From contig NC_092657.1 in NCBI RefSeq assembly GCF_032118995.1, forward strand, positions 14,026,139 through 14,090,138: DNA of 64,000 nt, written 5' to 3'. How positions within the stretch are numbered: position 1 is the first letter of the stretch; every line of letters begins with the position of its first letter. The translations under genes and the position numbers were made by a program. Positions 39,058 through 62,300 of this stretch are shown here, piece after piece. The notes under the pieces were generated by a model. The model saw only the letters and a list, made by a program, of their open reading frames with translations, was not told where the DNA came from and did no database searches. Origin of the DNA: Asterias amurensis (taxonomy: Eukaryota; Echinodermata; Asteroidea; Forcipulatida; Asteriidae).

Positions 39058-39162
39058 ACCCGGGTGTGATCCCTGGCTACACGGCAGTTTGCGATTGAAT
39101 GGCTTCTGACAGTCACCCCCGAACAAAGTTATTGACAAAATTGGGAGACCACCAACATAGGG

Positions 39163-39235: not shown

Positions 39236-39462
39236 TTGTCTTTGTTCAATCCAAAATCATTTTAAAAAGTACCCAGTCAGTTTCCCTTGTGGTTTATTAT
39301 TTGATATCTGATATAAAAATTCGCATCCCCTTATAGTGACCCCCTGTCTGCCGCTTCCCGGGTGTGATCCCTGGCTACACGGCAGTTTGCGGTTGAATGG
39401 CTTCTGACAGGCACCCCCCGAACAAAGATATTGACAAAATTGGGAGACCACCAACGTAGCGC

Positions 39463-39535
39463 TAGATAGCTCAGTTGGTAGAGCGCCGGCACGTTAAACC
39501 GGAGGTCGTTGGTTCAAATCCCGCTCTAGTCAATT
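39463..39535 (+). tRNA. tRNA-like sequence 2 (SINE head or pseudo-tRNA)
   Basis: As the first, with D-arm tagctcagttggtagagc. The acceptor arm gctaga/tctagt pairs well, and a T-run (caattttt) that could stop RNA polymerase III follows. Same anticodon-loop problem. Confidence 0.4.
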
Positions 39536-39597
39536 TTTCTTTGTTCAATCCAAAATCATTTAAAAATGTACCCAGTCAGTTTCCCTTCTGCAAACTG

Positions 39598-39800
39598 ACC
39601 CCATCTTTAGTTGTTTTGCTGCATCCAGCAGCAATACACCTGGTCGACATTGCCGGAAAAATACAATATATTTTTTTTTTTCGTAACGTACGAACTCACG
39701 ACTAGGACTTGAATGACTTGCACGTACGTGTGTTCGATGTTCAAACGAGGCAAAGTCTGCAAAGTCACAAAAGTGGTAGGCGGGGTCATCCTCCATACAA
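39598..39800 (-). pseudogene. Second THAP first-exon relic with its promoter-like block
   Basis: Minus strand from 39650: MSTRCIAAGCSKTTKDG, the first 17 residues of a THAP domain, nearly identical to the relic at 31540; nothing further is kept. The upstream part (39715-39790) resembles 31640-31700. It ends just after the tandem tRNA-like unit. Confidence 0.5.
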
Positions 39801-40096
39801 CTTTATTATTTTGATTTTTTTTTTACATATGTGAACAAACACGAAGCTGTTCCGTGTTGTTTTGATTGGATTATGTGCTTCACTGCCCAAGGAATCTAGA
39901 ACTGAAAAAGATTTCAAAAAAGTTGTGTAGCTCTTGATGTATAAAAGGTCACACTTCACGGTTGACCCGTAAGTAAATGTCAACATGGGCCCACATCTAC
40001 CAAAGACTAATCTGCAATGCCAAGGAGTATATCGGTTGACGCGGAAGTAGAGGTCAACTTGGGGTCACGGTTTTTCAAAGTTGATATTATGCTTAA

Positions 40097-40387
40097 AGGC
40101 AGTGGACACTATTGGTAATATTCAAAATAATTATTAGCATAAAACCTTACTTGGTAAATAGTAATGGATATAGGTTGGTAGTATACAACATTGTGAGAAA
40201 CGGCTCCCCCTGAAGTGGAGTAGTTTTCGAAAGCACACAACTTCGTGTGACAAGGGTGTTTTGTCCTTTCATAGTTATCTCACAATCCGACGACCAATCA
40301 AGCTCAAATTTTCACAGGTTTCTTGTTTTATGCCTATGTTGAGATACAGCAAGTGAGAAGCATGGTATTTGACAATTACCAATAGCG
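40097..40387. mobile_element. TTAA MITE, right end lost
   Basis: TTAA at 40093-40096 and AGGCAGTGGACACTATTGG on the left. It breaks off at accaatag|cgcgacga, with about 40 bases missing at the centre. Unrelated sequence starts at 40388. Confidence 0.75.
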
Positions 40388-40964
40388 CGACGACTAGCGC
40401 AGGCCTCCAGTCTTCCTTTATTATTTACGCCCGAAGAATCGATTGATAATACACTTCATACCTCAGTAGACTTTATTGATCAACTAAATTTACAATCTCA
40501 TTAAAGACCATGCCAAATACCCCCTTCAGCTTTCGCTATTTAAAAGATCATGTATTAATAAGTACCCTACAATTTTCCTAGATTTTTACACTCATCTTGT
40601 ATTTGAGAAAAAAAACGAAATTCGCGGCGAAAAATTACCCCGCAACATCAGGGCTTCCCAAACACGAGCGCCTTTCACCGATGGTGGCAGCAAACATTTT
40701 GCCAACAATAGTGACGTAACTGGACGTGTGGATCTGTCTGCCTGTGTAAGCGCCCCCCCGCATAGCAACGGTCTGGTTGCGGACTCACACTTAGCACGGC
40801 TGGCTGAACTTCTAGTTCCCGTCGTGCGTACCATAGTTGTACTGAACTTTTCAATGCACACATACAATACACTTTGTTATTACGTTTTGCTTTGGTTGTG
40901 TGCTAGTGGTTGAAAGTTAGTCGCTCTTTTGTTATTTATTTTAAAGCTTTCTTCCATTATCAAT
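40388..40964 (+). promoter_or_regulatory. Probable 5' region of the THAP-transposase gene
   Basis: Relatively GC-rich stretch (40640-40850) with a CRE-like tagtgacgtaac, followed by AT-rich leader. No other gene is seen. Promoter function is inferred from position. Confidence 0.35.
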
Positions 40965-41733
40965 ATGCCAATATTTTGTGTTGTTGGTGGCTGCAATAGA
41001 AATCAGAGGGATGATTCCGAGTTGGGTTTTTACAGATTTCCCAAAGATAATGTTATCCGCCGTCAATGGGTGAAGTTTGTAGACCTTACAAGATCAGACT
41101 TCACACTTTCTAAATATTCAAGGATTTGCAAAGCCCACTTCTTGGACGATGTATTTGATGATACGTGTATCATGAAAAAGAAATTGGGAATACCTGTTCG
41201 AATGGTTCTCACACCAACTGCCATTCCTACAGAAAAGAACCCATCTATGGCTGCCGTCGATACTGCTAGTAGTAGTAGTAGTAGTATTCCTGCCAAACGT
41301 ATTCGACGAAGCAATACATGGGTACGAAAGCGGGTAAGGACTCCTCGTATTACTTTTAAATGTACTGTAGACACATCACGCTAAAACTATGACAACACCA
41401 TTTACTTTTATCTTTTGACTCAACCGTTTATAATAGAGTAATATTGACTACAGATCAACCTCAACCCAAGACTTTGCACACTCGTCAGCTAATGATACAA
41501 TCTCCTTATCTCCTTTTAGTGCTTGGGTTTCTTTTTTGCCATTAATTCTTACACAACACGGAAACAAACCAAAGTGACCTTGCATTGCTCATCATTATTG
41601 AGGACTGCATCGCCCATTTCCAAGTAGGTGTCCTTGGAAGGGGTGCCCCGGCTTGATGGTCATTTTCAGCATCATGCTTTCACTGGATAATAATAGTCTT
41701 AGGCCACTGTACAGTGCCGGCTTAGTCCTCCGT

Positions 41734-41774
<41 letters not shown>

Positions 41775-42675
41775 GTGTCTTTAATTAGTTCCCGACGTTA
41801 TGCAACGATTGGGGGTGCAGGGTCAATCTATCTAAATCAAAAATTAAAAAGGTAGGCTTACATCCAAAAAATAAACAAATTTGAATTAATGACCCTACAT
41901 TTTGGTTAAGGGTTATGTTATAAATACGTTCCAGACAAAATAATGAAATGTAAGGGGGGGGGGGCTATATATCACCTCCATGATACCATAGACCACAAGA
42001 GAACAAACTTCAAATTCGAAACTAAATCACACGTTTCTGTTCCTGTGTAAAGGAATTGGATGAACTTCTTAGCCCCTCGTCAAGTGATGACCTCCCAAGC
42101 TGATCTAATGCAGGGAGCCATTTACCTGTTTCTAAAGTGCCACATCCGGTCCACACTAAAGGACAACTTCAATTATTATAATAATAATTTACGTGTTCGT
42201 GATCCGATACCAACAGGTAGATGGAGGAATTCAGGTCGACATTAAAACGGCCGACTCAGATAAAAGCTGTCAAACATCCATTGAACGCAGGGTAGTCAAG
42301 AAACGATCCAAGAGTGTGCAAGTTAAGATTCGAAATCCAATAATTAGCAGAGGTTTGTGCATCATGGACAAAATTTAAGCTATACACAGTTGTTTTAACT
42401 ACTATAATTATTTTTATTTTATCTTTGTTGGAAATGAAATTGTTTAATTATTTCTTTCCTTATATTTTTTAAGGTGTTCAGTGGTCCCGTAAACGAAAAG
42501 ACATTTCAATACAATGTGAGTTGATCAGTGCTCCGAAGCTGGAGCTTAGACCCATTTCTATTGCTCCCGATGACCAGATAAAAGCACATGAAGATATGAA
42601 CCATGGTGATTGTGAAATGGACAGTGACACTAGCGACAGTGATTACTGCGAGTATGAGAGTGATGATGACTACCA
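40965..42675 (+). CDS. THAP-domain Kolobok-like transposase gene, 5' part (exons 1-3)
   Basis: Exon 1 (40965-41333) encodes a THAP zinc finger: MPIFCVVGGCNRN, FYRFP, W, then RICKAHF (C-x4-C ... C-x2-H). The start at 40965 is chosen because THAP proteins begin this way; an in-frame ATG at 40929 would add twelve residues. Donor CGG|GTAAGG, phase 0. Exon 2 (42217-42352) carries DKSCQTS and a Lys/Arg-rich stretch; donor GTTTGT, phase 1. Exon 3 (42474-42675) encodes VQWSRKRKDISIQCE and an acidic Ser/Asp tail (SDTSDSDYCEYESDDDY). At 42676 the exon is cut by a 16-kb transposon. THAP binds DNA and is known at the N-terminus of Kolobok, P and ISL2EU transposases. The gene continues at 58621. Whether it is a mobile element or a domesticated gene is open; I saw no inverted ends for it. 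Confidence 0.75.
41735..41771. repeat. T37 homopolymer in intron 1
   Basis: Run of about 37 T inside the first intron. Exact length is unreliable in any assembly. Confidence 0.85.
42674..42675. other. Left target-site duplication (CA)
   Basis: CA precedes CCCAGTAAACA; the same CA follows TGTTTACTGGG at 58619-58620. With one CA removed, codon CAA is formed and the frame continues. Confidence 0.7.
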
Positions 42676-42989
42676 CCCAGTAAACAGACACCAAAAAGTA
42701 ACCAGTTTTGTCGGTGAATTTTACGTGAAAATTAGGTATGAATAATTTCGAACCAAATCGTCACCTTGCAAACACGTGATTTTTGTGAGGATTTCTGGGC
42801 ACCTAATTTTTACGTTATATTTCCCCTTCGACATTACCGCTTAATCACGTGAATAGTCGAAGTTAGTTACAAACGTTTGATTGACAAGTGATTTTAAGGT
42901 AAAAATTTCCTATTTTTCACCTAAACAACTAACGTGAATTCAAACTGTAAATTACTGGTGCCGACAAAGCGTGAATATTTGGTCGTCAG

Positions 42990-45400
42990 AGCATCGGCGA
43001 ATTCCGTTGAAGATTAACTAAATAAAAAGTGGTAAATATAACGTGTTTTTCACCAAATACATACGTAGTCATCTTACCAGTATAAATAACGAGATAATTT
43101 GGTTTTTCAAATGACTGACTATTACGTTTTCATACACACCAATTATTTTGGTTAAAGACTAACCACAAAACAGTGGTCAAAATTACGTGTTTTTCACCAA
43201 ATACAAACGTAGTCATCTTACCAGTTAAAATTACGAGATGATTTGGTTCCTCAAATAACTGACTATTACGTTGTACAAACACTAGTTACTTTGGTTGAAG
43301 ACTAACCACAAAATACTGGTCAATATCACGTCTTTTCCACCAAATACAAACGTAGTCATCTTACCGGTTTAAATAACGAGATAATTTAGTTTTTTCAGAT
43401 GACTAAAAATAACGTTGTCAGAATACTATTCATTTTGGTTGACGACTAACCACAAAACACTGGTCAAAATTACGCGTTTTCCACCAAATACAAACATAGT
43501 TATCTTACCACTTAAAATAACGAGATGATTTGGTTCCTAAAATAACTGACAATTACGTTGTCAATACACGTTTTATTTTGGTTGAAGACTAACCACAAAA
43601 CACTGGTCACAATTACGCGTTTTCCACCAAATACAAAAGTAGTCATCTTACCACTTAAAATAACGAGATGATTTGGTTCCTAAAATAACTGACAATTACG
43701 TTGTCAAAACATCAATTATTTTGGTTAAAGACTAACCACAAAACACTGTTCAAAATCACGTGTTTTTCACCAAATACATACGTAGTCATCTTACCGGTTT
43801 AAATAACTAGATAATTTAGTTTTTTCAAATGACTAAAAATAACATTGTCAAAACACTATTTATTTTGGTTGAAGACTAACCACAAAACACTGGTCAAAAT
43901 TACGCGTTTTTCACCAAATACAAACGTAGTCATCTTACCACTTAAAATAACGAGATGATTTGGTTCCTAAAATAACTGACAACTACGTTGTCAAAACACC
44001 AATTATTTTGGTTGATGACTAACCACAAAACACTGGTCAATATTACTTGTTTTCCACCAAATACCTACGTAGTCATCTTACCGGTTTAAATAACTAGATA
44101 ATTTAGTTTTTTCAAATGACTAAAAATAACGTTGTCAAAACACTATTTATTTTGGTTGAAGACTAACCACAAAACACTGGTCAAAATTACGCGTTTTCCA
44201 CCAAATACAAACGTAGTCATCTTACCACTTAAAATAACGAGATGATTTGGTTCCTAAAATAACTGACAACTACGTTGTCAAAACACCAATTATTTTGGTT
44301 AAAGACTAACCACAAAACACTGGTCAAAATTACGTGTTTTCCTCCAAATACATACGTAGTCATCTTACTAGTTTAAATAACGAGATGATTTAGTTTTTTC
44401 AAATGACTGAAAATAACGTTGTCAATACACTATTTATTTTGGTTGAAGACTAACCACAAAACACTGGTCAATATTACGCGTTTTCCACCAAATACATACG
44501 TAGACATCTTTCCGGTTTAAATAACTAGAAAATTTAGTTTTTTCAAATGACTAAAAATAACGTTGTCAAAACACTATTTATTTTGGTTGAAGACTAACCA
44601 CAAAACACTGGTCAAAATTACGCGTTTTTCACCAAATACAAACGTAGTCATCTTACCACTTAAAATAACGAGATGATTTGGTTCCTAAAATAACTGACAA
44701 TTGCGTTGTCAAAACACCAATTATTTTGGTTAAAGACTAACCACAAAACACTGGTAAAAATCACGTGTTTTTCACCAAATACAAAAGTATTCATCTTACT
44801 GGTTTAAATAACGAGATGATTTGATCCTCAAAAGAACTAAAAATTACGTTGTAGAACATCATTTATTTTGGTTGAAGACTACCCACAAAAACTATGGTCA
44901 TAATCACGTGTTTTTTTTACCAAACAAAAACGTAGTCATCTTACAGGTTTAAATAACGAGATGATTCGGTGTTTCAAACAACTGACTATTACGTTGTCAA
45001 AACATCACCTATTTTGGTTAAAGAATTACCACAAAAACACTGGTCAAAATTACGTGTTTGTGACTAAATACAAACGTAGTCATCTTTCCGGTTTAAAGAA
45101 CGAGATATATATATTTTTTTATAGACTGGCTATTACGTTGTCAAAACACCAATTATTTTGGATGAAGACTAACCACAAAAACTATGGTCAAAATTACGTG
45201 TTTTTCACCAAACACACACGTAGTCAGCTTACCTGTTTGAATAACGAGATGATTTTGGTTCTTCAAATAACTGACTGTTACGTTGTCAGAACACTAATTA
45301 TTTTGGTTGAAAGACTAACCACAAAAACACTGGTTAAACTGACGTGTTTTTGACTAAATACACACGTAGTCATAGTCATCCGACTGGTAAAAATAACTAG
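42990..45400. repeat. Satellite-like array, 143/144-bp units (about 16)
   Basis: The landmark actaaccacaaaacactggt recurs at steps of 143 or 144 bp. Two unit types can be told apart: one with ggttcctaaaataactgac and one with tagttttttcaaatgacta. They largely alternate, giving a dimeric period of about 287 bp. Each unit has several ACGT-core motifs (attacgtgttt, aaacgtagtcatctta, acgttgtcaaaacac). Units near 45000-45400 are more diverged. Probably the left sub-terminal region of the transposon, where transposase-type proteins bind in plant CACTA elements. No coding. Confidence 0.85.
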
Positions 45401-47990
45401 ATGTTTTGTTTCGTAATGAGTTTTCTACTACGTCCAGCAACCGCAAGTTCATTGACTGAAACTGTTTTTTTTTCTTCACCATTATCTGAATATATAAGAC
45501 TACGGAATCTTTGGTTCTGTAAGGACATAGAACAGACGACTTTATTGAGCGTATTATATGAGGTTGCTATAAGAAACAGACGGATACCGTTGTTATCTTA
45601 AAAGTAAGCAACACGTTTGTCATTAAATTAAACTGTGAAGAATTACTGGGTGTGGCAATACGGGTGCTGACTCCGGCAGCGGACGTTTTCAGTTAGTCCA
45701 TTTGGGCAATTTTGCTTATAAAATTAATTGTAACACAAAATTTGAATGATTTTAATTAAAATAAGGGCAAAACAAAAGTGAAACAAGGAATAATCGCCCC
45801 TGACTAGCGGTGACTGCAAAATAGCCAATGGATATGACAGCCTATTAACCTATTATTAGAAAAACAAAACTTGCGAACTTACTAGCTTGGCGAGCTAATT
45901 GCTGTTTAGGACAGAGGGCCTTAATTGTGTGAGAGATAGCCTAATCATTTATTTCTAAGCAGAGCTGGTTTAAGTTTATCCACAGTTAACTTGTTTTCTG
46001 TATCCAGCCGTTCTATCAGAAGCGAACTATTTAGTTATTTAAGTCCGAGGCTGTAAACAAAATAATAAGTAGTTACCTAACCACCTTGTGTTTTACAAAT
46101 AATAGGCGTACCAATGGAAGATTTTAACCCGCACTTTTAATCTGACGCGTGAAACAACGCCAACGGAAATAGAAAACGGCAAAGGGGCAACCTCCACATA
46201 CAGACCAGCTATGGACGAAACTGTTATGCATAGGATGGGTTTGCCAGAATTGATTTGGTTAATAGGCAATGTCCCATCTTCCCCAGTGTACCTGCTATTT
46301 GGAAATAAATTTCGTTTTCGGGGCATTTGCGCAATTTTTTGTAACTATTTTATTTGGTATTGTTTTTTTGTTTTTTTTGTTTTTTTGTGAATTTCGCCCT
46401 ATGCACACTTGATTATGACTTCGTTTTTTTTTTTAATTCATTATTTGTTCGTCATAATAAAATGATCTAATTGTATTATGTAAGTTATAAGTTTGCCTTT
46501 GCCGTTTTGCGCCCTCGTGCGATGCACAGCGAGATGATCGTTTTTTTTTGTTTTTTTATTCTCTCCGTACATGTCATGTTTAAAGTTCATTAAAGCAGTA
46601 ATCTGCTTGTGATCCAACATCTACTACAAGTTCCATTGTTTTAGCTCACTGGTTTCGCGGGGTCCAGTGACCTTTCACCTCACCGACTGCTTTTCGTCCA
46701 ACAGGTAAATTAAACTCTTTCAAACTTTCACTTTTAAATCTGTGATTTTGATATATTCCATATGTATTTATTGCTTTAAAATGTACTTAAATTAGCAGCA
46801 GTTGCCTCCTGATTACTCTGGGTGTATATTTTGTTAATACTATTGAAGTATATAGAGAGATTTTTGTTTTGGAAATTCAAATTGTAGAGGTTCGTAGAGA
46901 ACAACGTGTTTTGTGTATCACGTAAGATTTAACGGTTCAGGTGTGTCGAGTGCCGTGGTTCGTGGGTGGGCAGCGGGCCATGTGGTCATACTGTGTACAT
47001 GTACTTACATGTACATTTACATGTAGCTATGCCGGGTGTGTTGTTAGTGCATGGAGGAAGGGTTGGTGTGATTTTATTGATCGTTTTATGTTCGTTCACG
47101 ATCAACTTTGTAGGCCTAAATAGTGCATATGATCACATTATCTTATTGTCTCAGTTAGATGGGATATATTATCCCTTTCAACTCGCCCCCTACGTAAATT
47201 CTGAAAAAAAGAAGAAATAATAACATCTTCTCCCAATAAATACTGCCCTCTGTTGGCCAAGCTTGGCATCATAAGCTTTCCAATGGTAGTATGGTACCCT
47301 ATGTGCTACTACCTTCAGATTGCAAAGTGGAGAAGAAACCTGACTATTGCTTTTTCTAATGTGTCAGCTGTAAGTGTAATGCTTGTGTGTTGTGTATGGT
47401 TGTGTACGTTATTATACACGTTGTACGGTGACTTTCGTGCAAATCCTGCTCTTTATCTCATACAAAATGCTACATTTCAGCTTCAAAATGCCTCAAAAGA
47501 AGCCTGAAAAAAAAATAAATGTTGTCCGACATTCCAGGAGACATTTCAGAAAAAGAATAAGTCTTGGGTTTTGCTTTGGGGGTTTTGTAGATGAAAACGG
47601 CGATCTTGACGAGGAAGAAATGTTGAATGAACGAAGGCATTGATCCGACCATAGACTGCTGGTAATGCACATGTAAGAGCGAAATTCTGGGAGGTAAAAG
47701 TAATATTTATTTGTATATTTTACCTCTATAGTCATAGAAAGAGCAGTCAGATGATGTAGATTTCAAAAACGGCACCCAAAATAATAATGATAAAATAAGG
47801 ACATGCAGAAAAATACTATATAATTTAATTAATAATTGAATAAAATTTAGACATACATTAGAAGATTACTGTGTTGTTTAACTGTTTTTACAGAGTACCA
47901 GTGTAACTAGCCAGCTAGACACCATTCCGCCGCCCGTTTTGGTCACGATATAGGAGCTACTGGAACTATAACCAGGAAAGTAAGTGTCCT
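45401..47990. other. Spacer of the CACTA element; no confident gene
   Basis: AT-rich. A short basic/acidic frame starts at about 47488 (MPQKKPEKK to LNERRH); it could be an upstream exon of the transposase gene but has no support. Acgtac/acatgta-rich words lie at 46990-47025. Nothing else seen. Confidence 0.3.
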
Positions 47991-47997
47991 ATTTAAA

Positions 47998-48492
47998 TAG
48001 TCTAGACCAGATTTCGAACTAAACAACTTCGAGCAGCATTTTTGAGTAAAAAGTTTGTGCTGATTGCGAAAATGATGGATACCAAGGCTACATTTGAGTC
48101 CTTGTCCCTGAATCCAAAAATCGGGGATACAGGGCTTGAAATTTACGCTGGACCGCAGGGACGAGGCCAGTGATTTTAGCTTTGGTCCAGTAAACTTCAT
48201 GCCGAACAAGTCCGACGGTCTTTTTTTTTTTTTTTTATACATACTAAAACTATTATAAATAATAATATGAAATTTATCTTTCATTAAAAAATGTATTTCA
48301 ATCTCACTTTAAAATTAAAGTTTTTGTTTTACTTGTCGTCAAATCACTCCGAGCACGGAATGTCAATCCGTCCTTGGTATCCATCATTTTCGGAATCAGC
48401 ACCCCCAAATTAGGTAAACTAGGTATGTTACCAACTTCTCAAAAATGCCGCTCACCTCCTTAACTAGAGCCCTTTTTTGAAATCTGGTCTAG
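47998..48492. mobile_element. Hairpin element inside the CACTA transposon
   Basis: Left arm tagaccagatttc, gcatttttgag, gcgaaaatgatggatacca; right arm the reverse complement (tggtatccatcattttcgga, ctcaaaaatgc, gaaatctggtcta). Arms are about 110-140 bp, separated by about 240 bp. No coding. Confidence 0.6.
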
Positions 48493-48674
48493 GGGTAAGG
48501 GTAACATACATGTAGGCCCTAATCTAAAACTGTTGTCAAAACTCGACATTTTGTAGACTTATGACACACTTAAAAATTTATAGATCGCTGTAATTACTGC
48601 TCTAAACAAAATAACAGAATCGTGAAATTAGGCTTTATCCAGTAATATTTTATACAATAAGGAGTATTGTTCTC

Positions 48675-50780
48675 ATGCAAATATATAATTCTTGTTACAG
48701 AGAAATGAATAGGCGTAAGTACCAAAACACCTACATGCAGTCTAGACGTAAACGTCTTTGCACCGTTCGGCAACATGAACAACGTATATCTCTAAGCAAA
48801 ACAAGCACACGTTATGATAGTACAAGCGATGACACTGATGATAACAATGTTTTTAAACCTGACCAACAACACGAGCGTGTTCACTCCTCATCTCACACGG
48901 ACAACACTGCTTTCTCTCTGGACACTGAGAAACGAATCTCAACAGATGAAAATTCAAGTGGTGCATGTTTTCAACTAGACACAAACCAGGACGGGAACTT
49001 TGTACTGGAATCTTCTGACGATTCTCTGTCATCCCCACATCCCAGTCCAGTACAAACAGACACTGAGAGCGAAAACGAACAACTAAAAGGTGACACGTTT
49101 CAGGAAAAGTTACAGGACTGGGTGCAGCTGTGCAGTATACGCCTTAATCATGTCGACAAGTTATTGGGGCTCCTAAGAACAGTGCTTCCTGATTTGAACC
49201 TTCCAAGGACTGCCCGTACACTGCTCAAAACAAAATCAATGATGAGTACCGAGAAGTCCGGAATGGACTATATCTTCTTGGGTGTAAAAACAAAATTAAA
49301 AGAGCATTTGGAAGCTTATCCTTCTAGTACTTTCCATACTGAAACTGCAATAGAAATTTCTCTCAATGTAGATGGTGTTCCTGTATTTAATAGTAAAAAC
49401 ACATCAATGTGGCCCCTTTTGTGTTGTATTCACCTTACACCAGTTACAGTGTTTACTTGCGTTCTTACATATGGCCCCCAAAAACCAAAGGATGACGAGT
49501 TCCTTCGTGAAGCAGTTGAAGAGATGAAAGAAGTGTTGGCCACTGGGTTAGAGATCCATGGCAAGACCATTCATTTTGTCTTGAGAGCTGTTGTTTGCGA
49601 TGCTCCTGCTAGAGCAATGGTTAAGAAAGTTAAACAATTCAATGGTAATTATGGTTGTGATCGCTGTAAACTTAAAGGTGAGCATGTGAGTGGACGCCAT
49701 GTATTTACACAATGCAACAACTTGCCATTACGTACAGACACATCTTTTAGAAAGCAGGAAAACGAGGGACACCACACAGGAGTCTCAATATTTTGCAAAC
49801 TCAAAATCAATATGATTTCTGCTTTCCCACAAGACTACATGCATCTGCTTTGCCTTGGGGTAATGAAGAAGCTACTGAAAGGGTGGACACATGGTACATA
49901 TGAGATGCAAAATCGGAAAAAAACCAGAATGTTAAAGCCCCTTACAGCAACAAAAGTAGCTCTTATATCACAGAAACTAGTGGCATTGCGAACATGCATA
50001 CCTGACCCGTTTGCAAGAAAACCCCGTGGACTTGACGAACTCGCCCACTGGAAGGCTACAGAACTCCGGCAGTTCCTTTTATACACCGGCATCACGGTGT
50101 TGCGAGATGTATTGGATGAGGATTTGTATGAGCACTTTTGTCTCCTATGCGTTGCCTCGAGGATACTCATCTGCCCAAGACTGGCACAGAAATGCTTGCC
50201 ACTTGCACGCCGGCTTCTTATCAATTTTGTTGAAAAAATGAAAATCCTGTATAGAACTACATCGATGGTGTATAATATTCACAGTCTCCTACATCTATGT
50301 GACGATGTCCAGAACAACGGAAGTCTTGACAAAATATCTGCATTCCCATTCGAAAACTACCTCCAGTCGTTAAAGAAAATGGTCCGGAAGAAGAGTGACG
50401 TTGTTATTCAGGTTGCCAGACGGATAAGTGAACAGCGAATCAAGTTGAAGAAAACTGACCCTCGATCCCAGAATGTTAGGTGCGTCAAACCAAATAATGC
50501 CTATCTGTATGGCAATGATGTGCCAGTTGAGGTCATCCAGGTGATTGAGGTTCCAAACAAGGAAAACAAATACGAGTGTTGGGCCTCAAGTACACGACCA
50601 CGACAATTCCTACTAAATGGACAAGATGCCCGGGGTGTGGGGATGTTTGTTGTCGTGTGGAAGAACTTGAAAAAAGTGATAGTTTGTCAGTCACAATTGA
50701 CAAAACGGGGAATGTTCTTACCATTCGACCACGAGTCTGGGTGTCACCGTCTGTTCTCAACAATTCTGCATGGCTATTAA
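48675..50780 (+). CDS. tnp2-like (CACTA/CMC) transposase, up to 701 aa
   Basis: Single open frame; the in-frame ATG at 48705 just after an acceptor-like cttgttacag is an alternative start and perhaps the real one. The N-terminus is basic (MNRRKYQNTYMQSRRKRL) and then Ser/Asp-rich to about residue 145. The core fits the tnp2 transposase pattern of En/Spm-type elements: a first acidic residue in SLNVDGVPVF (D233), SMWPLLC, YGPQKPKDDEFL, a second Asp in VVCDAPARA (D309), a C-x2-C knuckle YGCDRCK (C328, C331), and DYMHLLCLGVMKKLL (D387, H390), like the D-x-MH motif of the family. The third catalytic acid is not assigned. This enzyme should cut and join the transposon ends. It lies 81 bases upstream of the DUF4806 gene, same strand. 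Confidence 0.75.
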   Translation: MQIYNSCYREMNRRKYQNTYMQSRRKRLCTVRQHEQRISLSKTSTRYDSTSDDTDDNNVFKPDQQHERVHSSSHTDNTAFSLDTEKRISTDENSSGACFQLDTNQDGNFVLESSDDSLSSPHPSPVQTDTESENEQLKGDTFQEKLQDWVQLCSIRLNHVDKLLGLLRTVLPDLNLPRTARTLLKTKSMMSTEKSGMDYIFLGVKTKLKEHLEAYPSSTFHTETAIEISLNVDGVPVFNSKNTSMWPLLCCIHLTPVTVFTCVLTYGPQKPKDDEFLREAVEEMKEVLATGLEIHGKTIHFVLRAVVCDAPARAMVKKVKQFNGNYGCDRCKLKGEHVSGRHVFTQCNNLPLRTDTSFRKQENEGHHTGVSIFCKLKINMISAFPQDYMHLLCLGVMKKLLKGWTHGTYEMQNRKKTRMLKPLTATKVALISQKLVALRTCIPDPFARKPRGLDELAHWKATELRQFLLYTGITVLRDVLDEDLYEHFCLLCVASRILICPRLAQKCLPLARRLLINFVEKMKILYRTTSMVYNIHSLLHLCDDVQNNGSLDKISAFPFENYLQSLKKMVRKKSDVVIQVARRISEQRIKLKKTDPRSQNVRCVKPNNAYLYGNDVPVEVIQVIEVPNKENKYECWASSTRPRQFLLNGQDARGVGMFVVVWKNLKKVIVCQSQLTKRGMFLPFDHESGCHRLFSTILHGY

Positions 50781-50861
50781 TTATCAAGTGAGGTTCTTCC
50801 TAATAATGAGCTCTGCAACGCTTACATGTTCTTTACATCATTCATTTTCTAAATATAAAGA

Positions 50862-53800
50862 ATGGCCTCTGAAGACGGCGCAAGACTCTTTTATAAAGTG
50901 GTGGAGTTTATAGACGACCAGAAGTGTGGAGTAGTACCGAACAGCTGGCTGTTTGGAGAAAACGTGAGTATCTATCTGCAACACCAACCAATCTGAAACA
51001 CAAAATCTTGTAATTTTGTGTGGACCATAATTATAACAAAGATAATAAACACAGTGACCAATTTAAAGCACAGTAAAATGTAACAAACATGCACAAAATG
51101 CAATACCGGCTACTGTTAGGTCATATATTGTGTACAAAGCAGTTTTATCCAATTGATTTGTCTATTTTGAAGTGCTGGATGAAGTCATTTTATAAAAGTG
51201 GTTTATAAAAATGGAAATGCATTTTCATTTAATGTGTACAAAACATTTGCACCCGAATGATTTGGCTATAAAGTAGTTGATGAAAGATTTTTTTTTTAAA
51301 TGGTTTATGAAAATGGAGGTGCATTTTAATGAGATATAGTATTACCTTAAACTGTTTTGTTTTTTTCTTCCTTCTTTTCTTTCTCTTTTACTTATTATTC
51401 AAAATTTTTCGCAGCGAAAGGATTTTTGCTGGTGGCCAGAGCAAAATTTCAACATCAAAAGACTCATCATTGACCACAAAAAGCCGAACCCGTCGAAATG
51501 GAAAAAGTTCCATGTCCGTGTGTTCCATGAGCGGTTCCGTAAGTTTGCACTCAAATCATAATGACATTTATTTTGTAATACTTCTGCGTTCAAAGAAAAG
51601 GAACATTTTGTCTTTTAACACATTGAACTGGAATGAACACCAGTACATATCCCGGTTGTGAGAACTGTGTCCCTGAGCAAGACACTTTACTATAATTGCT
51701 TCTCTCTGTCCAGGGGTAAATGGACACCTGTGAGGGCAAAGATGGTTCTTGTGATTGATTTAGCTTAGTGCACTACATATTTGGCAGCACAGGCTGTATA
51801 TTACCCAGGGAGCTGAGATGGTTTATGGAATGAAAAGGCCCAGTGATCAGGGGTATTAATGTTGGAAGCGCTTTGAGACGCGGTGTATAAAGCACTTTAT
51901 AAAAACTGAATATTATTACTATAATTATTTGGGGCACATTTATTGATTGTCTGTTTGTGTTTGAAGCCGACGTTATACAAAGTATTTTCATCACATTTTT
52001 GACAGATACTTACCTGAAGGCTGATAAAGCCGTATCACACTATAACTCTACGTCAGACAAATACGAGTCCGAAGAAGAAAGCAACAAAGATGGGCAGGTT
52101 GGTCGGGGAGCAAAAAGGTCATCAAAGACAACGAATGGTGACAAGCGGGGTAAAGGAATCGATGATGGCGAAGAAGGCCGGGAAGGGGACAATGAGGAGG
52201 AGGAGGAGGAGAACATCGAGACACAAGAATCCGACGAGAGAGCATCCCTTCAGGAAGAGGACACATGTAAGTAGTAAACTCCAGTACATTTCACATGTTT
52301 GCAACCAATTAACATTAAGGGTCACATGAAGGAAGAAAATTAATTTAACATCTAAAAAAAGGATATAAATAATACAAATTTCATGTCCTGTTTAAATAGA
52401 TGAGTAACTCCAGTAATTGTTAAAAATCTGTTTTCGTCCTCGGTCATACAGTTATTAAAACAATTACATGTATGTGTGTGTTTCACACTCGTTGTGACCC
52501 ACGTCATCATTGCCATTCTCGACGAAGTAAGCCATTTGTTTTGTATGTGTATAAAAAACTTCAAATTTCTTAACACTTCATTATTATTTTCTTTGTAGCT
52601 GTCGTACTGGTGACCGATGCTGATATGCACAATGCAGACGTGATGGATTCTTCAATCGATGAAGAGCGTTCACCACGTACAAAACGTAGATGTATTAGTT
52701 TTGGTGAGTCACATTCTCTATATATAACTCAAATATTTGCTCCGGAAAAAAGGTTCTTTTTAGTGAGTTTTACAACCCCTTCCATCCTCCCGACCCTTCC
52801 TCTTTCTCAAACCCAACCCCCCCCCCCCCCACACTTTCTTCCATGTAGATGCATTAAAACATCAAACATTAGGTCTGTTCTAACCATTGCTATGATTATT
52901 TGGAAAACAGGGACCTTTGTCTCCCGCAAAAACAACATTCAAACAGTCAGGGAATGGTTTATTACCAGATACCACACCGATAACATGTGATTTCCTTTTC
53001 AACCCCCCCCCCCCCCCACACACACCTTTCTCTGCCTATCTTTTGCTGTCACGGATTTGGTTTTGAATTTCCCGCTCCAGGGTATTTCCGCTTAAGTTCT
53101 TTCTGGGCAGTGTGTATCTCTTTTCCTCGTACCTTCCCTCAGTTCCAAACCCCACCCCCTACCAACAACTGTTCCGCTTTGCCCCCCCCCCCCACCCCCC
53201 CCCCCTCCATAATTAAGAACTGTACACATATTAACGCCTCATACGCTCTTTAAAGCCTTGGTTTCCATTACATGATTCTCCATGTACAAGGGAAGAATTT
53301 TATAATACTTAACCTCAAGCTTTTTGAACGTTTTGAGTGTGTCCCGGTTTTACTATTTTTCTGTGCTTGTCCTCGAATTTGGTTTATATGATGCACATGG
53401 TTATTACCATCAAAACGTTGTTTGTGGTCACAATGTTCTCATCTCCTGGTCTGTTTGCACAGGCCTACTTGTATGATTTCGCTTTTCCTCTTACACACAT
53501 TATTGATCTAAAAATGCCATCATTACCACTGGAGCTGCCACATGTGAGAAGGGCATTGCACTTTTATAGCAGCAAAGCATTATGGGAAAACGGCATTTTT
53601 CATGTTATGCTAAATTATTTAGCAGCCATATATAAAGACAAAAAACTTAATTGTTGGCAGAAAAGTTGTATTGAACAAACCTAAGAATCCATACAATTAA
53701 TATAAAATAGTTTTAGTAAAAACCTGATCATGTGACCAAACAAAGATGGCAGCCTCCATGGAGAATGTAAACAAAGGTGAATACATACATGGCATGAAGT

Positions 53801-55942
53801 GTGTTACCAAAAGTACTCCTTATGGGCCATCAAAACCTCTCCAATCAATATCACATAGATGGTTTGACTGACTGGAAAAAACAATAACCTTTTCAGTTCT
53901 CCAAAAGGAAGAATGTCTTTAAACTGAGGGGCATTTAGCTACAATATCTGGGTGGAATAAAGCAGACACATTGGAACTATTTATTGTTACGCTTAATTGT
54001 TACGTTTGTATTAATTGTGTAATTGGTGTATAGTTTCAGTGTTTCAGCAATGTTAACACGTCGAAAACAAAAAGTACGTTTCAGGGAATAGCTTTTTATT
54101 ATTTTCTTATCATACTACGGGATATGCTTTTACCACTTTGTTATCATTTGTACAGAGGATGGACAGAGAATCCTGGAAAACCAGGAAAAAATCATCTCCA
54201 TCCTTGAAACGATGGAGTTCAAACATCCCGTTGATGTTGAAGAAGAGATTCGGGACATTCTTCCTTCAAAATGTTCTACAATTCAGGAGCTCCTGGATTT
54301 TGACGAACAGTTAAAGGGGAAAGAGCCCCTCTCTAAGACAGCAAAGGCAACCTTCAAGAAAAGGCGAGAGCTCCTGGTAAGAAATCATCCTTTGATAAGA
54401 TACACTGCTGTCCTGATCACGTTTTTTTCAATACTGAGCGTGAAACTTTAAGTGAATATTTCAACAATGAAGAAGATCTAGATATCAACTACAAAAAATC
54501 CAGGGACGATTTGTTTTGTAACCCTGAGTGAAGGACAAACAGGGTTTTGTCTTTGTTTCAACACCAGCATTGCACTACTACTGCCATATATGTGTTGTAG
54601 TGTTATAAGGCTCGCAACCGCCAATTTTGGCGCTTTTGTAATAATCTAGTCAACAATTAATCAACACCATGAATCAAACAGTAATAAACGTTTTCCTTTC
54701 TCTTATTGCTTGCCTAATTTTCTTTAAGAAACAATACCTAGTGGTGAAGGCTGCTGGAGAAAAGGAGGCAAGGCCAGTACTAAGGAAAATGTTAGAGGCA
54801 GTGGCATCGGTACCAGTACTGGCAATGCTTTCAAAGTGTGGCCAGGAAAGGAAAAATGGTGATGCCAAGACATCCTTGCAGGGTCTCACTCTATATACGA
54901 TCATTATCAGTAAGTAAACACTCGACTTATTAATTTTACTAACTTAAAAAACCGTATTAACGAAAGCTATACTTTCTGCGAGTTAAAAAAATTTGCCCTA
55001 AAATTGTATGCACTCCTGAAAAAAGAAACATGTACGTAGAGTCAGGTAAACACATTCAAACCTGTAACTTATAACACAAGGATCCCCTGCTCAGGAAAGG
55101 TACCTGGTTGGAAAAATTCAAAACCCTAGGGTGTTGTTGACCAAAATGTACAAACAAAAAAGTATGTCCCTGATTGCATGTATTTGTTTATGTATGTGTG
55201 CCCTCATATTTGCTGCCTTGTGGAGTCTATAACAAAGGGACAGTCAAGTACATGTGGTCTGTTATGCAGGTTTTCTTTCTTTTCACCCTTTTTTTAAAGG
55301 GGGGCTCCATTGTTCTTTGATTGTTCTAAAAACTCCAGCCATCCGGCCCCACATTTTTTCGACCCTATTGTTACGCCAAACTTTCGATGGTCCTGTTCAC
55401 CGAAGGACTGCTTCAGGGAGAAAAAATGAAAACTAGTAGCATAATTATTATGTGCTACTTTTTTCAATAGTACTTCAGTGTCCTTATTTGCCAAATAAAT
55501 ATCAACTTTCTTTTTATGTATCTTAATCAAATTCATACACAAGGCCTGCCTCATTTTTTTATTTTTTTTTTCATAATTTTTTTTCCAAGTTCTTGCCATT
55601 TACTTTTTAAATTTTGTGAAGCTTGTTTTTTTAGAACCACCAGTGAAACAAATCAAATCTGGATTTCAGAATGGAAAAAACAATTTATGTTTTGTTTACT
55701 AGTGTGACAAAATGTTTATTGTTAACCAACATGAGATAAATTAACAGGCATAATGATGTTTTGTTTTTTTCTCCATATTTCAAGGGGCATCAAGAGCTAA
55801 TAGAGAAAGACCTATCCAACAGGCAGAGTTAGACTCGAACCTTGTTAATATACTTAAAGCTTATCCTAAGCGAAAAGCTGTCAAACTTCATCCAGTATTG
55901 AGTGTACCAGAAAGAGAGGACACCAGTGAAGAGGAAGCATAA
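50862..55942 (+). CDS. DUF4806-type protein of the CACTA element, 7 exons, 383 aa
   Basis: Exons 50862-50963, 51415-51538, 52006-52266, 52599-52703, 54156-54376, 54729-54909 and 55785-55942; all have GT/AG borders and their phases agree. The N-terminus (MASEDGARLFYKVVEFIDD, then NSWLFGEN, then CWWPEQNFNIKRL) is the usual opening of proteins that end in DUF4806. The middle is acidic (EEEEEENIETQESDE) with a basic KTKRR patch. The C-terminal part from FKHPVDVEEEIRDIL through LLDFDEQLKGK, KATFKKRREL and PVLRKMLEAV is DUF4806-like. Such genes are often beside tnp2-like genes in animal genomes, as far as I recall. I infer a DNA-binding or accessory role, comparable in position to TnpA of En/Spm. 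Intron 2 holds a SINE. Confidence 0.75.
51655..51915 (+). mobile_element. SINE with ATT-type tail, in intron 2 of the DUF4806 gene
   Basis: Reads ctgagcaagacactttacta, cttctctctgtccaggggta, gtgattgatttag, gaatgaaaaggcccagtgat, gcgctttgagacgcggtgta, then a short tattattac tail. Related to 24270-24520. The tRNA-like head is mostly missing. Confidence 0.6.
52820..54100. other. Intron 4 of the DUF4806 gene with C-rich runs
   Basis: Three C runs (52819-52831, 53004-53017, 53180-53205) and pyrimidine-rich DNA. No exon or repeat recognised. Confidence 0.45.
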
Positions 55943-56343
55943 GATGTATATCTTAAGCACTCTCTCCTGCTTCTTAGAAAAAAAAGAATGAAAGAAATTG
56001 ATCATTCCTGAATTAAGGTACTCATTTTGCAAGCTGTCCACGGAACACTTGACAAAACAAATGTCAAGCAAAGCATTTTAGCTGTACAGGGCAAGTCAAA
56101 ATGAAGTTAACTGAGATTTATGATTTAAAATCAAAACAGCAACTGACACTCAAAACCCTTGTGAAGCTCATATTAAACAAGCATTTTTTCCTGCTTATCT
56201 GAAAAAAGAATGAAACAAATAGATAAATTGTAAGAGAAGTTATGCTTAGCTGTTTAATTAAAAAACACTCATGTTTGTAGCTGTACATGGAATATTAACA
56301 CTTGACTCAATCTAAACATCTGGGTAAGTAGGTTTTCTTTTAA

Positions 56344-57017
56344 AGGCACTGGACACCTTTGGTAATTGTCAAAGATCAGTCCTCTCACTTGGTGTATCTC
56401 AACATATGCATAAAATAACAAACCTGTGAAAATTTGAACTCAATTGGTCGTCGAAGTTGCAAGAGAATAATGAAAGAAAATTTGTGTGCTTTCAGATGCT
56501 TGAATTCGAGACCTCAGCTGAGGTCTCGAATTCAATTCAAATATTTTAGTGAGAAATTACTTCTTTCTCAAGAACTACATTACTTCAGAGGGAGCCGTTT
56601 CCCACAATGTTTTATACTATCAACAGCTCTCCATTGCTTGTTACCAAGTAAGTGTTTTATGCTAACAATGATTTTGAGTAATGCCCCAAAATTGGTATAA
56701 GAACTTACCTGGTGTAGAGCAATGGAGAGCTGTTGATAGTACAAGTATAACACATTTTGAGAAACGGCTCCCTCTGAAGTAACGTAGTTTTTGAGAAAAA
56801 AGTAATTTTTCACTGAAATATTATTTTAACTGAGCTGAGGTCTCGAATTCATAAGGCGTCTGAAAGCACACAACTTGTGCGACAAGTGTGTTTTTTCTTC
56901 CATATTTTCTCGCAAGTTCGACGACCAATTGAGTCCAAATTTACACAGATTTGTTATTTTATGCATAAGTGGGAAGACTGGTCTTTGACAATGAATTACC
57001 AAAGATGTCCAGTGCTT
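56344..57017. mobile_element. Double-length TTAA MITE, subfamily 2, inside the CACTA element
   Basis: TTAA at 56340-56343 and 57018-57021; ends AGGCACTGGACACCTTTGG and inverse (ccaaagatgtccagtgct). It holds two head-to-head halves: cggctccctctgaag is near 56770 and its inverse near 56584, and the palindrome cgagacctcagctgaggtct is near 56506. About twice the family's usual length, so a dimer or one copy inside another. Confidence 0.7.
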
Positions 57018-57021
57018 TTAA

Positions 57022-57415
57022 GTGGAAAAATATTCAGGGAAAGTCATCAAGTTTGGCAATGAACATTATGCAGGGAAATGTTGGTGAGGAATGTACAATT
57101 CTGGTAATTATTTTCATTGTTTTGAAGTTTGGATGCTGATGTCATTATCCCTTGGAATGTGTATTGGAATGGATAATTTTATTTTTAATTATTAAACTTG
57201 TTAAAGTTGGTGAGATACTTTGGAATAACTTTTCATTGAGACTGAATAGTTTTGCATCTCGTTACAGTTATGGTTATGTGTTAACTTTTGTTGTTAACAA
57301 TTAAAGTGTGAAACAAATTAAAGGATACGTTTTGTAATGTTGATCTGTAAGCTACTAATGTATATTTATTTTTAAATAATGGTACTCTATAATCTAAACC
57401 CGTATTCTATAACTG
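57022..57415. other. AT-rich spacer before the right array
   Basis: No gene or repeat recognised. Confidence 0.4.
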
Positions 57416-58607
57416 GTGAAGAAAGTGATTACATGTATTAGAGCGCAAACGGGGATTTCTAATGCCGAATAATAACGTTGTTATTAGGTGTGCAACAATT
57501 GGTTTCTTTAACCGATTGAAAACGTAATTATTAGGTTTGCTTAAGGCTGTTTGTAACGGGTCAAGAACGTGATTATTCGGTATGAAAAAAGTGGTTTCTA
57601 GAACCGGTTAAGAACGTGAACACCAAGCGTGCAAAAAGGGGTTTCTGTAAAGGATTAAGAACGTTGTTATCAGGTGTGCAAAAAGGGGTTTCTACAACCA
57701 GCATAGAACGCGATTATTAGGTGTGCAAAAAGGGGTTTGCTGTAAAGGGTTAAACACGTGATTATTAGGTGTGAAAAAGGGGGTTTCTACAACCAGCTTA
57801 GAACGCGATTATTAGGTGTGCAAAAAGGGGTTTCTGTAAAGGGTTAAACACGTGATTATTAGGTGTGCAAAAAGGGGTTTCTACAACCAGTTAAGAACGT
57901 GTTTATGAAAGTGAAATTCACGTGGCATTCACGTGCAGGGTATGACGTGATTATTTAGCAAAAACGCATTAACGCCTCCGAAGAGATTTTCACGTTTTTT
58001 AAGAACGTGATTTACTGGGCGTGCACAAAAGGGGTTTCGACAACCAGTTATGAACGTGATTATTAGGTATGCAAAAAGGGAGTTCATATGTCGGGATATT
58101 GACGTTTTCATTAAATGAGAAAAACAGTTCTTTTATAATAGAATAAGAACGTGATTATCAGGTGTCCAAAACACGTTGATAAACAACCGGCAAATAACGT
58201 TATTATAATAAGGAAATGTCCAGTGTATTCCATTGAGGCCTCCAACGAGATTATCCCGTGCTTTGAAAAACGTTATCTGTATAGCTGATAATAACGTGAC
58301 CTTTAAGTGTAAAACAAACTTGAATCAACAACGGATAAAACACGTGAATATAACGCAGGGTAATCGCGATTCAATAACGGGTATTTTACGTTATTTTCCG
58401 GTTTGGAATGCGCGTTTTTTAGGATTGGACTGGTAACGTTATTATGGAAGTGAAATTCACGTGACATTCACGTTCAGGGTATAACGTGAATATTTAGCAA
58501 AAACGCATTAACGCCTCCGAGGAGATTTTCACGTTTTTAAAGAACGTGATTCACACCAAACCTTTTCTCGAATTTCACGTGTTTTTCACGTGTTTTTAAC
58601 GTTCCTT
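57416..58607. repeat. Right sub-terminal array of the CACTA element (AACGTG-rich)
   Basis: Roughly ten units of about 48 bp: aacgtgattattaggtgtgc, aaaaaggggtttct, acaaccagttaag. Then come two copies, 537 bp apart, of a longer block (57905-58015; 58442-58555) with gtgaaattcacgtg, gcaaaaacgcattaacgcct, gattttcacgtttt. ACGTG/CACGTT cores are shared with the left array, although the units differ. A second ttactgggc word lies at 58012. Confidence 0.8.
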
Positions 58608-58620
58608 TGTTTACTGGGCA
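58608..58620. other. Right terminal inverted repeat and CA target duplication
   Basis: TGTTTACTGGG followed by CA. Exact inverse of 42676-42686 with the same CA outside. Confidence 0.75.
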
Positions 58621-61600
58621 ACCATCAAGCGATGACGGCAGTAACGAATGTGCCCTGTAAGTTCATGCTTGTTGGAGAAATGCCATTGCAGTGTAGTAAA
58701 ACGCCCCTCCCCACAAAACAAAAATAAAGAACTTTTATCGGCTTGCAAACTTATTCATTTTATTTTATTGTCATTGAAATGTCTGACTTTAAATAAAATC
58801 TGAACTCGTAAAGACAATATTGCAGGTATCCAAGGCATGCGTAACCTGATCCTGAGGCAAAGTGACAAATACCCACAATGCAACATGCACTGTGGACGGC
58901 CTGGACAACATGGGAGTAGTGATGAGGCGTTCTGTTTTTTGTTTTGTTTTTTACCCAGAAAACTGGCACCTCTGTTGTTTATGATTTAAAGTTGTAATTA
59001 TGATTTAAATACTTTAAATATGTTCAATAAATAAGTTATTTGTTTTGTTTTTTTTAATAATTAGTATTAATAATAATACTGATAACGAAAACTTGTCAAG
59101 TGCACAAATCCATCAAAGTGCCAATGGCGCTAAATACAATTAATTGTGGTCTCTTTGCAGTGACTCAGGCCCTGATGAGGACGCCCCTTTGCACCTCGAG
59201 CCAAAGTACACCGTATTCAGGTCGAAACTTCTTGTGCTCTTCCGAAGGTGCATGAGTTGTGCCTCCCTTGCTGAAGGGAAAGTTGATCGGACAGTTGGTA
59301 CAATGGTTGTTGTAGTGCAAACATGTACCAACTGCACATCCGTCACCAAGTGGGAGAGCCAGCCCTATGTGCGGGACACACCGGCAGGGAATATTCTGCT
59401 TTCGACGGCAATACTGACTTCTGGGGCATCTGTTAGAAAAGTATTGCGAGTGTTGAACCAGTTTAGATTGGCATGCACGACGGAAAATACCTACTTCAAC
59501 CACCAACGGTACTATATCCAGCCTGCTATTGTGAAGGTACACGTTTCTTCATTGATGTTTGTACACTAAAACAAAGAAAATATTGATTTAATTAAATTAT
59601 TAATTAATATACATTAAATTGACTCTATATTTTTTTTATCAACTTGGTACAATATTCAAGTATTCGATATAATGTTCTCCAGGTGTGGCAAACGGAACAA
59701 ACGAAGCTAGTTAGAAACCAGCAAAGACAGAAAATTATAATTGGCGGAGACGGAAGATGTGATAGTATGGGTCACTGCGTTAAATTTGGATCATATAGTG
59801 TTATGGATCTTGGAGCCAACAAAGTATTGGATGTACAACTTGTACAGGTACACTTTATATTTAACGTATCCCTTTTTTATTTCTAGCACTTGGTTAAAAT
59901 TTTATTTTGTCTACTCGCCTATCTATTTTAGTACCAAAACAAATACTAATAATCGATATTTTGTTATTCACTACTTGAGTTTGCTATACATTGTAAAACG
60001 CTTACTTCACTCAGAAGACCAGCCGCCTTGCGCGGCGCCTTTGTTCTTTGCTGAACTCCCTGGTTTTGTGTGACGGAACATTTTTGGCGTTGGCTTCCAT
60101 AAGTGCTCTCCAAAATTTGGCCTGCATGCTTCAAGGCCAACTTGGACAATTATTGTTCATAACCTGTCACCACTTTTTCATTTGTTCTGGGATAAATGAG
60201 TTTCGAATTTAATCGAATGAATATTCCTTGGTAAAATCATGGTAAAATTTGGTGGAAAGGTGTTGACCCACGTTGTGAAAACGCTACGCTTGTTTTGAGA
60301 AATACGTTTTTGATTGTAGATTAGCCGGCACCTCCTGGCTTAAACCTTGCATCAATTGTAACATTCATGTGCGTTATCGTGTGCTTTTTATATACTCGAT
60401 TTCAGAGCAATGAGGTGAAAAACTCAAACGCCATGGAACTTAAAGGTCTAAAACGTTCCGTCAAATGGATGGCATCAAAGAACGTGGAAATAGACACCAT
60501 CGTGACAGACAGACACCTACAGATTGCCAAGTGGATTCGGGAGAACCTTTGTGAAAATGGGGTGTCACACTACTTCGATGTTTGGCACATCGCTAAAGGT
60601 AATCCTATTACTTCTGTTTATTGGGCTCGTTTGCAGAGATGCCACGTCCAGAGGCCAGCTTTGCGTGAGATTTTTCAAAGCTCACCACCACCCCTCCCCC
60701 CCCCCCCTTCGGAAAAAATCGTCAGATTTAGAGGGCCTTTCGAAAAGGCCGCCCAATTTATTTATTTTTTTTTTTATAAAATAAAAAAAGAAAAAAAAAT
60801 GCAGAAATTTGGGCATCATGGCACAGGTGTTCACTTCTTGTCAGTTCAACAAGTTTCATGAATGTTTCAAGTGTTTCAGGAGACGACAATCATTATAAAG
60901 GATTCACATAATGTTGTTCACAGGAATAAAAAAGAAAATGGTTGCTTGTGGCCGACAGAAGGACTGTGGCATCATTGTGGACTGGATTAAAGCCATTGTG
61001 AGCCAAGTAAGTTAATTATTTGACAACTTGCTCTTTACTAATGAACTTATTAATTTTATTGTGAATGCATAGGGCATGCATGCATCACAAGCTTATATAA
61101 ATAATTAAATAATGTGATTCCTTTGGCAGGTGAGAAATGTTCAGATTTCATGAATTAAGAATTATTTTCCAATGGTATTGTAAATTGCGTTACACTCCTT
61201 TCCCACCCAGTCAGCATGGGGAAAACCACGTGGAGTCTGTTAAAATGGGATTTAATTAAGTTCAATCAAATTTGACTATTTTTAACAGATATACAGGATA
61301 CCTTCATCCAATTCATCCGGGGACGGAGAACTGATGGCAGCTAAATTCAAATCCACAAGCCGTCACATCATAAATGTGCACGAAGGACATGACGAGCCCT
61401 ACCCGGTCTGTGCACATGGGCCACTAACTGGACAACGAAAACAAAATGGTTTCAGCCAGGTAATTTTAGATTTGGTACTCTTGAATTAGTCAGGGGGGTA
61501 GTCATGGGGGGAGTAGGTGATTAAAAACCTCAAACAGCCAGGGATGTAGATGAATGTATAAATGCATTTTGTTTATTTTATGTAAAAAACTTAATTAAAT

Positions 61601-62300
61601 ATTTAGTTTTTTAATACACAGGTTCCAAACCATATGAATTGTTGGTTACCAAAGTATTCGACAATACGAGAATGCAGAAAGCCATCTACAAGCTCTCCCC
61701 CTACATGCAGACGTAAAGGATTCCATTCACTGATAAACCAGTTCGCCCCCAAAATGGTTGCCATTTCATACGAAGGAATGACATGCAGGTAATCATTCAT
61801 GAACAATAGTCTCATTTACTGTATTTCAATTACCTTTTTATAAAATCAGACAATATCTTAGAAGGTTTTCCCCTTATACATTCAAGGTTATATTTGTCTG
61901 CTTTTCACTACAACGAAAACGCTGGGAGGGTTCAGGCAAAGAGCAAAGACGGAAAACTACAGTATGGAATACAATATCCTCGAGCAAAGAGTGGAGGCCA
62001 CACTGTCGTTAAAGTTCTTCAAGGTGAAACATTTAGTAAGTATTTTGTTATGCAAGCTTGTTTCACACTAGAGATAAACAAAAACTGTGTTGGAATGCAT
62101 AAGAGTTAATGCAAAAATACATTATGCAACATTATGTTTAAATATTTTCTTTCTTTTCAGATTATGCCGATCAGGTCACAGTTTTAGCATTAGAAAACTG
62201 TTCAGGCGGTGACAAAACACTACGGCAGAGAACACCAATATTGGCAAAGAAGTTGTACACAGTTTTCAGACAAAGTTGGTGTATAAGATGTACATTATGA
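58621..62300 (+). CDS. THAP-domain Kolobok-like transposase gene, 3' part (rest of exon 3 to exon 11)
   Basis: Exons 58621-58656, 59161-59536, 59683-59847, 60406-60598, 60924-61006, 61289-61459, 61622-61788, 61887-62035 and 62161-62300; every border is GT/AG and all phases fit. With exons 1-3 the total is 2,187 bases, 728 codons and a stop. The protein has paired Cys motifs (CMSC, CTNC), a SQPYVRDTPAGNILLS block, then likely catalytic blocks GGDGRCDSMGHCVKFGSY, IVTDRHLQIAKWI and YFDVWHIAKG, then EGHDEPYPVCAHGPL. I know this order from an abundant animal protein family that I take to be Kolobok-type DDE transposases; the superfamily name is less sure than the family itself. The end, ENCSGGDKTLRQRTPILAKK, is intact. 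All frames are open, so the gene looks intact except for the insertion. Confidence 0.75.

Follow-up and report, generated by a model that had tools for sequence, protein, structure and literature searches.

An animal CACTA-like transposon inside the transposase gene of a Kolobok transposon in Asterias amurensis

Introduction

How does a coding exon of a THAP-transposase gene come to be split by 15.9 kb of sequence with inverted ends, and does the state of the interrupted gene say anything about when this happened? The question is raised by a stretch of 64,000 nucleotides from Asterias amurensis, C10:14026139-14090138, which we call the window (C1, C10 and C18 are contigs; all other positions are window coordinates). 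The original prediction, made from the letters of the window, proposed that a CACTA/CMC transposon had entered a gene that otherwise stays open, and took the event to be recent. Nested DNA transposons are commonplace, and the nesting itself is an ordinary event of a known kind. In this study, we have searched the genome (491.5 Mb, 23 contigs) for relatives of both partners; the counts are lower bounds, and "only copy" applies to this assembly, in which repeats could have been collapsed. On the evidence below, we consider it highly probable that the THAP-transposase gene of a Kolobok transposon received, by cut-and-paste transposition, a transposase-bearing element of the animal TRC type, whose siblings would have moved in trans.

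The inserted element and its empty sites

The limits of the inserted element are as follows.

42676..58618, + strand: inserted TRC-type (CMC clade) DNA transposon, 15,943 bp, delimited by its ends, its duplication, nine more full copies and two empty sites
42676..42686, + strand: left terminal inverted repeat CCCAGTAAACA, 11 bp
58608..58618, - strand: right terminal inverted repeat, 11 bp
42674..42675, unstranded: target-site duplication CA, left
58619..58620, unstranded: target-site duplication CA, right

Inverted ends bounded by CA on both sides had been predicted, and they are found at these positions. The prediction had also staked itself on the existence of an empty site, which we sought among paralogues inside this one genome, in place of other individuals or species. 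Two close paralogues of the THAP gene (C10:8827942 and C18:12843351; 93-98% identity by aligned stretch, short pieces left out) both cross the insertion point with a single CA and no insert, and they match the joined window flanks perfectly over the 100 bases shown. Since two uninterrupted copies carry one CA, the insertion is derived: a 15.9-kb transposon entered a gene that encodes the transposase of another transposon. The predicted arrangement, a DNA transposon with a 2-bp duplication inside a coding exon of another type of transposase gene, is backed by these empty sites and by the duplications of the family.

The 11-mer end was rejected as evidence on its own, with 278 occurrences in the 491.5 Mb against 302 for a reversed control; the ends of the element are certain because its full copies share them. 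A search with the 325-bp left end gave 17 matches, ten over the full query (98-100% identity) and seven partial (72-76%), and one with the 439-bp right end gave 27, of which 11 were full length at 97-100% identity. Left and right ends combine into ten full copies, the window element included, and the eleventh full-length right end (C10:14577804) has no partner left end. In a 17-base form, the left end has 17 exact occurrences, corresponding to the ten full copies and seven distant ends, and two more at one mismatch (19 in total, against five for the reversed control). All ten full copies carry CCCAGTAAACA at both ends, with termini CCC..GGG, and nine of the ten are flanked by identical dinucleotides of seven kinds (chance 1.4e-10 at 1/16 each).

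The transposase and its class

Within the element lie a long reading frame and two tandem-repeat regions.

48615..50780, + strand: transposase frame of 721 codons (stop to stop), with a probable ATG at 48705 (by eye)
43006..45373, unstranded: subterminal array of ~144-bp tandem repeats, 16.5 units
57470..57906, unstranded: 47-bp tandem repeats near the right end

The ~144-bp array is longer in the five siblings compared full-length. Nested inverted repeats form a palindromic stretch at 56333-57028, which aligns to the same five siblings without large gaps.

The reading frame contains, in order, D253, D329, C348/C351, H556/H560 and E580 (stop-to-stop numbering), with C(2)C and H(3)H between the second D and the E, where D and E are assigned by motif and not by structure. 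This succession of residues is the one given for the EnSpm-Mirage-Chapaev-Transib group, where the two pairs are C(2)C and H(3-4)H (PMC12730594; this and the other PMC sources are cited here for the passages drawn upon). Animal TRC elements are described as having CCC-initial ends, 2-bp duplications and transposase motifs I and A (PMC1636069), of which motif I is matched exactly here and motif A with one mismatch. Judged by their sequence, with CCC termini and a 2-bp duplication, the ends are of this animal TRC type, which is related to CACTA. The predicted class holds as far as the CMC clade and the kinship with CACTA are concerned, but the terminus is not a plain CACTA one.

Pfam Transposase_21 (PF02992) is over its cut-off at four of the five places listed in this genome and in 0/14 control genomes; all four overlap genome matches to the window transposase, and the window frame is not among them. 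One related frame (L078) passes PF02992 and matches the window transposase at 8.2e-44. For a related transposase family (36% identity), element ends were sought and not found; two of its copies are 99.9% alike up to the 5.8-kb upstream limit.

Siblings with two missing segments

When the genome was searched with the transposase protein, 28 matches were obtained. One is the window frame itself (100%); the remaining 27 have identities of 28-48%, and no match falls within any of the nine siblings. Of the copies of this family found in this assembly, the inserted element seems to be the sole bearer of a transposase. Two segments distinguish it from its siblings, the second of which touches a further gene.

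47200..51295, unstranded: ~4.1-kb segment with the transposase gene, missing in 5/5 siblings read full-length, same breakpoints with single-base variants
53632..54375, unstranded: 744-bp segment, missing in 5/5 siblings read full-length, same breakpoint
54156..54376, + strand: second gene, proposed exon (splice sites by eye), full-length match unique to the window copy
54729..54909, + strand: second gene, proposed next exon (splice sites by eye), found in all ten full copies

The exon at 54156..54376 gave no Pfam match above the cut-off and is unmatched in all nine other full copies (protein search). The 744-bp gap takes all but one base of this exon, which continues in phase into the following one. 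The 4.1-kb segment has a 5-base microhomology or repeat at both borders, seen by eye, and no inverted ends were found there among the 25 longest of 52 pairs. Because no inverted ends were found among those pairs and the second gap removes a proposed exon, a loss in the siblings is favoured over a gain here. The siblings look like deletion derivatives, and the simplest account would be that one doubly deleted progenitor multiplied via transposase supplied in trans.

Outside the arrays, three internal segments were compared; in these, the five siblings are 98.7-99.9% alike and 96.1-96.8% identical to the window copy, a difference of ~3-4%. The left 330 bp, on the other hand, are 99.4-100% identical in all pairs, with 0.3-0.6% difference between the window copy and the five siblings. 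Both tests of this conservation were chosen after seeing the data: for the left end 1/330 against 59/1568 differences (Fisher p 2e-4), and for the right end 6/440 differences (p 0.009). Such low divergence is as expected if the ends were kept for transposase binding.

The region of C10 at about 8-15 Mb is a transposon-rich block with 5/11 full-length TRC right ends and 19/28 related transposase matches. The enrichment of right ends on C10 (p 7e-5) was not accepted as local hopping, the related transposase matches being concentrated there too.

The Kolobok target and its gene

By homology and termini, the target of the insertion is identified as a Kolobok DNA transposon copy whose ends are bounded by TTAA.

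40501..40504, unstranded: TTAA, left edge of the Kolobok transposon
68503-68506 (window-equivalent, 4.5 kb past the window end), unstranded: TTAA, right edge of the Kolobok copy

Homology with three other Kolobok copies starts exactly at the TTAA at 40501, and with two of these copies it extends to a right-hand TTAA. The window, C10 and C18 copies have TTAA at both ends, and the Kolobok ends pair as inverted repeats, AGACC..GGTCT. The empty copies are ~8.4 kb each (C10:8825716-8834071 and C18:12837227-12845573); for the further copy at C1:7926813, the left part alone was matched. A 95-97% duplicate of 38200-42346, comprising the Kolobok start and left flank, lies at C10:13990890-13994981 and breaks off ~330 bases short of the insertion site. 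Near the right end of the Kolobok copy, past the window, there are ~3.9 kb of extra, partly duplicated sequence that are not in the C10 empty copy.

The gene of this Kolobok copy was modelled as follows.

40965..41333, + strand: exon 1, THAP domain (Pfam E 8.5e-15, enclosing frame)
42217..42352, + strand: exon 2
42474..42675, + strand: exon 3, left part up to the insertion
58621..58656, + strand: exon 3, right part, donor at 58657
59161..59536, + strand: exon 4, same sequence in both empty copies
59683..59847, + strand: exon 5
60406..60598, + strand: exon 6
60924..61006, + strand: exon 7
61289..61459, + strand: exon 8, 1 base shorter than the C18 copy, frameshift near 61447
61622..61788, + strand: exon 9, 8 bases shorter than both empty copies (near 61713)
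61887..62035, + strand: exon 10
62161..62300, + strand: exon 11 as modelled

The predicted model was reproduced in full, with 11 exons, 2,187 nt, 728 codons and phase 2 at the join and exon 4; a join shifted by a non-multiple of three leads to stops at codons 239-281. Exon 1 exceeds both empty copies by 3 bases. In the alignment to both empty copies, exons 8, 9 and 11 of the window gene are short by 1, 8 and 93 bases; the exon 8 loss is found in neither empty copy, although the C10 copy carries an additional base of its own. The losses in exons 8 and 9 total nine bases, so that the frame is restored after ~35 codons, and the odds of ~35 shifted codons staying open by chance are about one in five. 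The loss in exon 11 (near 62249) removes the native C-terminus, and the last window codons read sequence that follows the stop in the C18 copy. That copy is open over 743 codons, and the C10 copy is frameshifted with a stop at codon 582.

A genome search with the exon 8-9 segment as C18 encodes it gave 23 matches, and the window locus matches this query in two pieces in different frames. Seventeen matches to more distant Kolobok families cross the same stretch, each in one piece, and for this reason we take the C18 frame as the original one; 14 of the 17 hold at least one stop, and the output gives no stop position. As the two frameshifting losses cancel, the 728-codon reading is open by accident. 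The window copy of Kolobok is dead, since the insert splits its gene and three further losses affect it. It had been argued that the interrupted gene stays open and that the event must be recent. The spliced 728-codon frame is indeed open, but the gene is not intact, and the step from an otherwise open gene to a recent event fails: with its three further losses the gene would be broken even if the insert were absent, and its openness gives no age.

Between the window and either empty copy, exons 2-7 show seven nonsynonymous and three synonymous differences, too few to judge selection. In the comparison with the C18 copy, 13 sites differ in exons 1-7, and 82 in the introns over ~2,630 aligned bases (summed by hand). 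This lower divergence in exons than in introns would suggest constraint at some time. Neither the codon nor the exon/intron differences date the insertion.

Elsewhere in the window, at 15261-17250 and 32550-34664, lie two similar genes that we take to be TRIM-like (RING, B-box and NHL-like repeats). The first is divided between two frames near 16.55 kb; in the second, a 6-bp tandem array at 34384-34511 encodes a Gly-Asp run.

Discussion

Our results favour a history in which a transposase-bearing member of the animal CACTA-like (TRC) family inserted into exon 3 of one Kolobok copy, duplicating CA. The DDE-type transposase of the inserted element would act on the conserved ends of the family, and the siblings without the two internal segments would in this way have moved in trans. 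Several observations weigh against parts of this history. The copy at C18:4898699 is an exception to the 2-bp duplication, with flanks AA/TA. As for the transposase, Pfam does not reach Transposase_21 (PF02992) in the window protein itself, and DUF4218 is weak there, scoring below its cut-off (E=0.0037). Five of the nine siblings had their breakpoints read, and in the other four the loss is deduced from absent protein matches. Finally, the ancestral state of the segments was judged from anatomy rather than from an outgroup, and no second transposase-bearing copy was found.

In an alternative that we regard as unlikely, the transposase segment at 47200-51295 would be an element in its own right that had entered a non-autonomous copy, and the inserted element would not itself be autonomous. 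The segment is unmatched in nine siblings by protein search and missing by breakpoint in the five read, and its borders share the 5-base repeat, as this alternative would have it. Yet inverted ends at these borders are lacking among the 25 longest of the 52 pairs, and two weak inverted pairs (76% and 81%) have one arm inside the segment and the other outside. Furthermore, a loss is already needed at 53632-54375, because there the siblings retain the next exon and lack the proposed exon that reads in phase into it.

Two other readings deny that the gene was broken, or that anything was inserted. The interrupted gene could work if the insert were spliced out as an intron, from a donor that follows 42735 to an acceptor that follows 58629, both of phase 2; one of the seven GT dinucleotides in the open entry stretch does have this phase (AG|GTATGA), SmTRC1 has been found as a transcript intron (PMC1636069), and CACTA ends can be recognised as intron ends (PMC4219821). 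We nevertheless hold this to be very improbable, since the frame downstream is shifted over ~35 codons, the native C-terminus is gone and the insert has a sense-strand transposase frame of its own. That the 16-kb stretch is an ancestral intron, with no insertion at all, deserves next to no credence: the flanks are in phase and the gene model has ten other introns, but two paralogues have the exon uninterrupted with a single CA, and the stretch has nine full relatives elsewhere, eight with their own duplications.

Starting from the cut-and-paste insertion of a transposase-bearing element, a bolder proposal can be made, to which we give little weight. The whole TRC family of this genome would depend on this one transposase-bearing copy, and the 28-kb nest, with both TTAA ends kept, might in principle be movable by either of two unrelated transposases. 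Independently of this, a cleanly bounded animal TRC element with a transposase, accompanied elsewhere in this genome by nine siblings in which none was found, offers a natural test of movement in trans. The Kolobok gene also gives a caution against dating by the argument that a gene is still open, as two losses that cancel can by accident leave a spliced frame open.

Among known systems, the closest to our element are the TRC elements of Schistosoma mansoni (SmTRC1), Aedes aegypti and Tribolium (DeMarco et al., 2006, PMC1636069), for whose ends the authors proposed a CCC core from the three species. In the parts of that paper used here, the likeness extends to CCC-initial ends (Aedes CCCAGTCAAC vs the end given above), the 2-bp duplication, a tandem-repeat region, truncated siblings, and a single long transposase frame with motif I, CXXC and a D-x-M-H-x3-L-G core. 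Insertion inside other repeats with paralogous empty sites, already described there in 2006, is likewise shared. There are also differences: the element here measures 15.9 kb vs 4.5-9.2 kb in TRC, its ends 11 bp vs 54, 27 and 10, the first residue of motif A is Q vs L/V/I, and Transposase_21 is not reached directly by Pfam. Within the CMCT clade (EnSpm, Mirage, Chapaev, Transib and others; PMC12730594, in part), the 2-bp duplication falls within the 2-5 bp range, whereas the CCC..GGG termini differ from the CA..TG given for most cases, which is usual but not universal. The target, for its part, shares with the Kolobok superfamily, as represented by Xenopus XKol in the material taken from PMC6004289, the TTAA target, ends starting with two purines (AG), the THAP domain and a length of several kb, and the window copy differs from it by the split that the insert causes and by its three losses.

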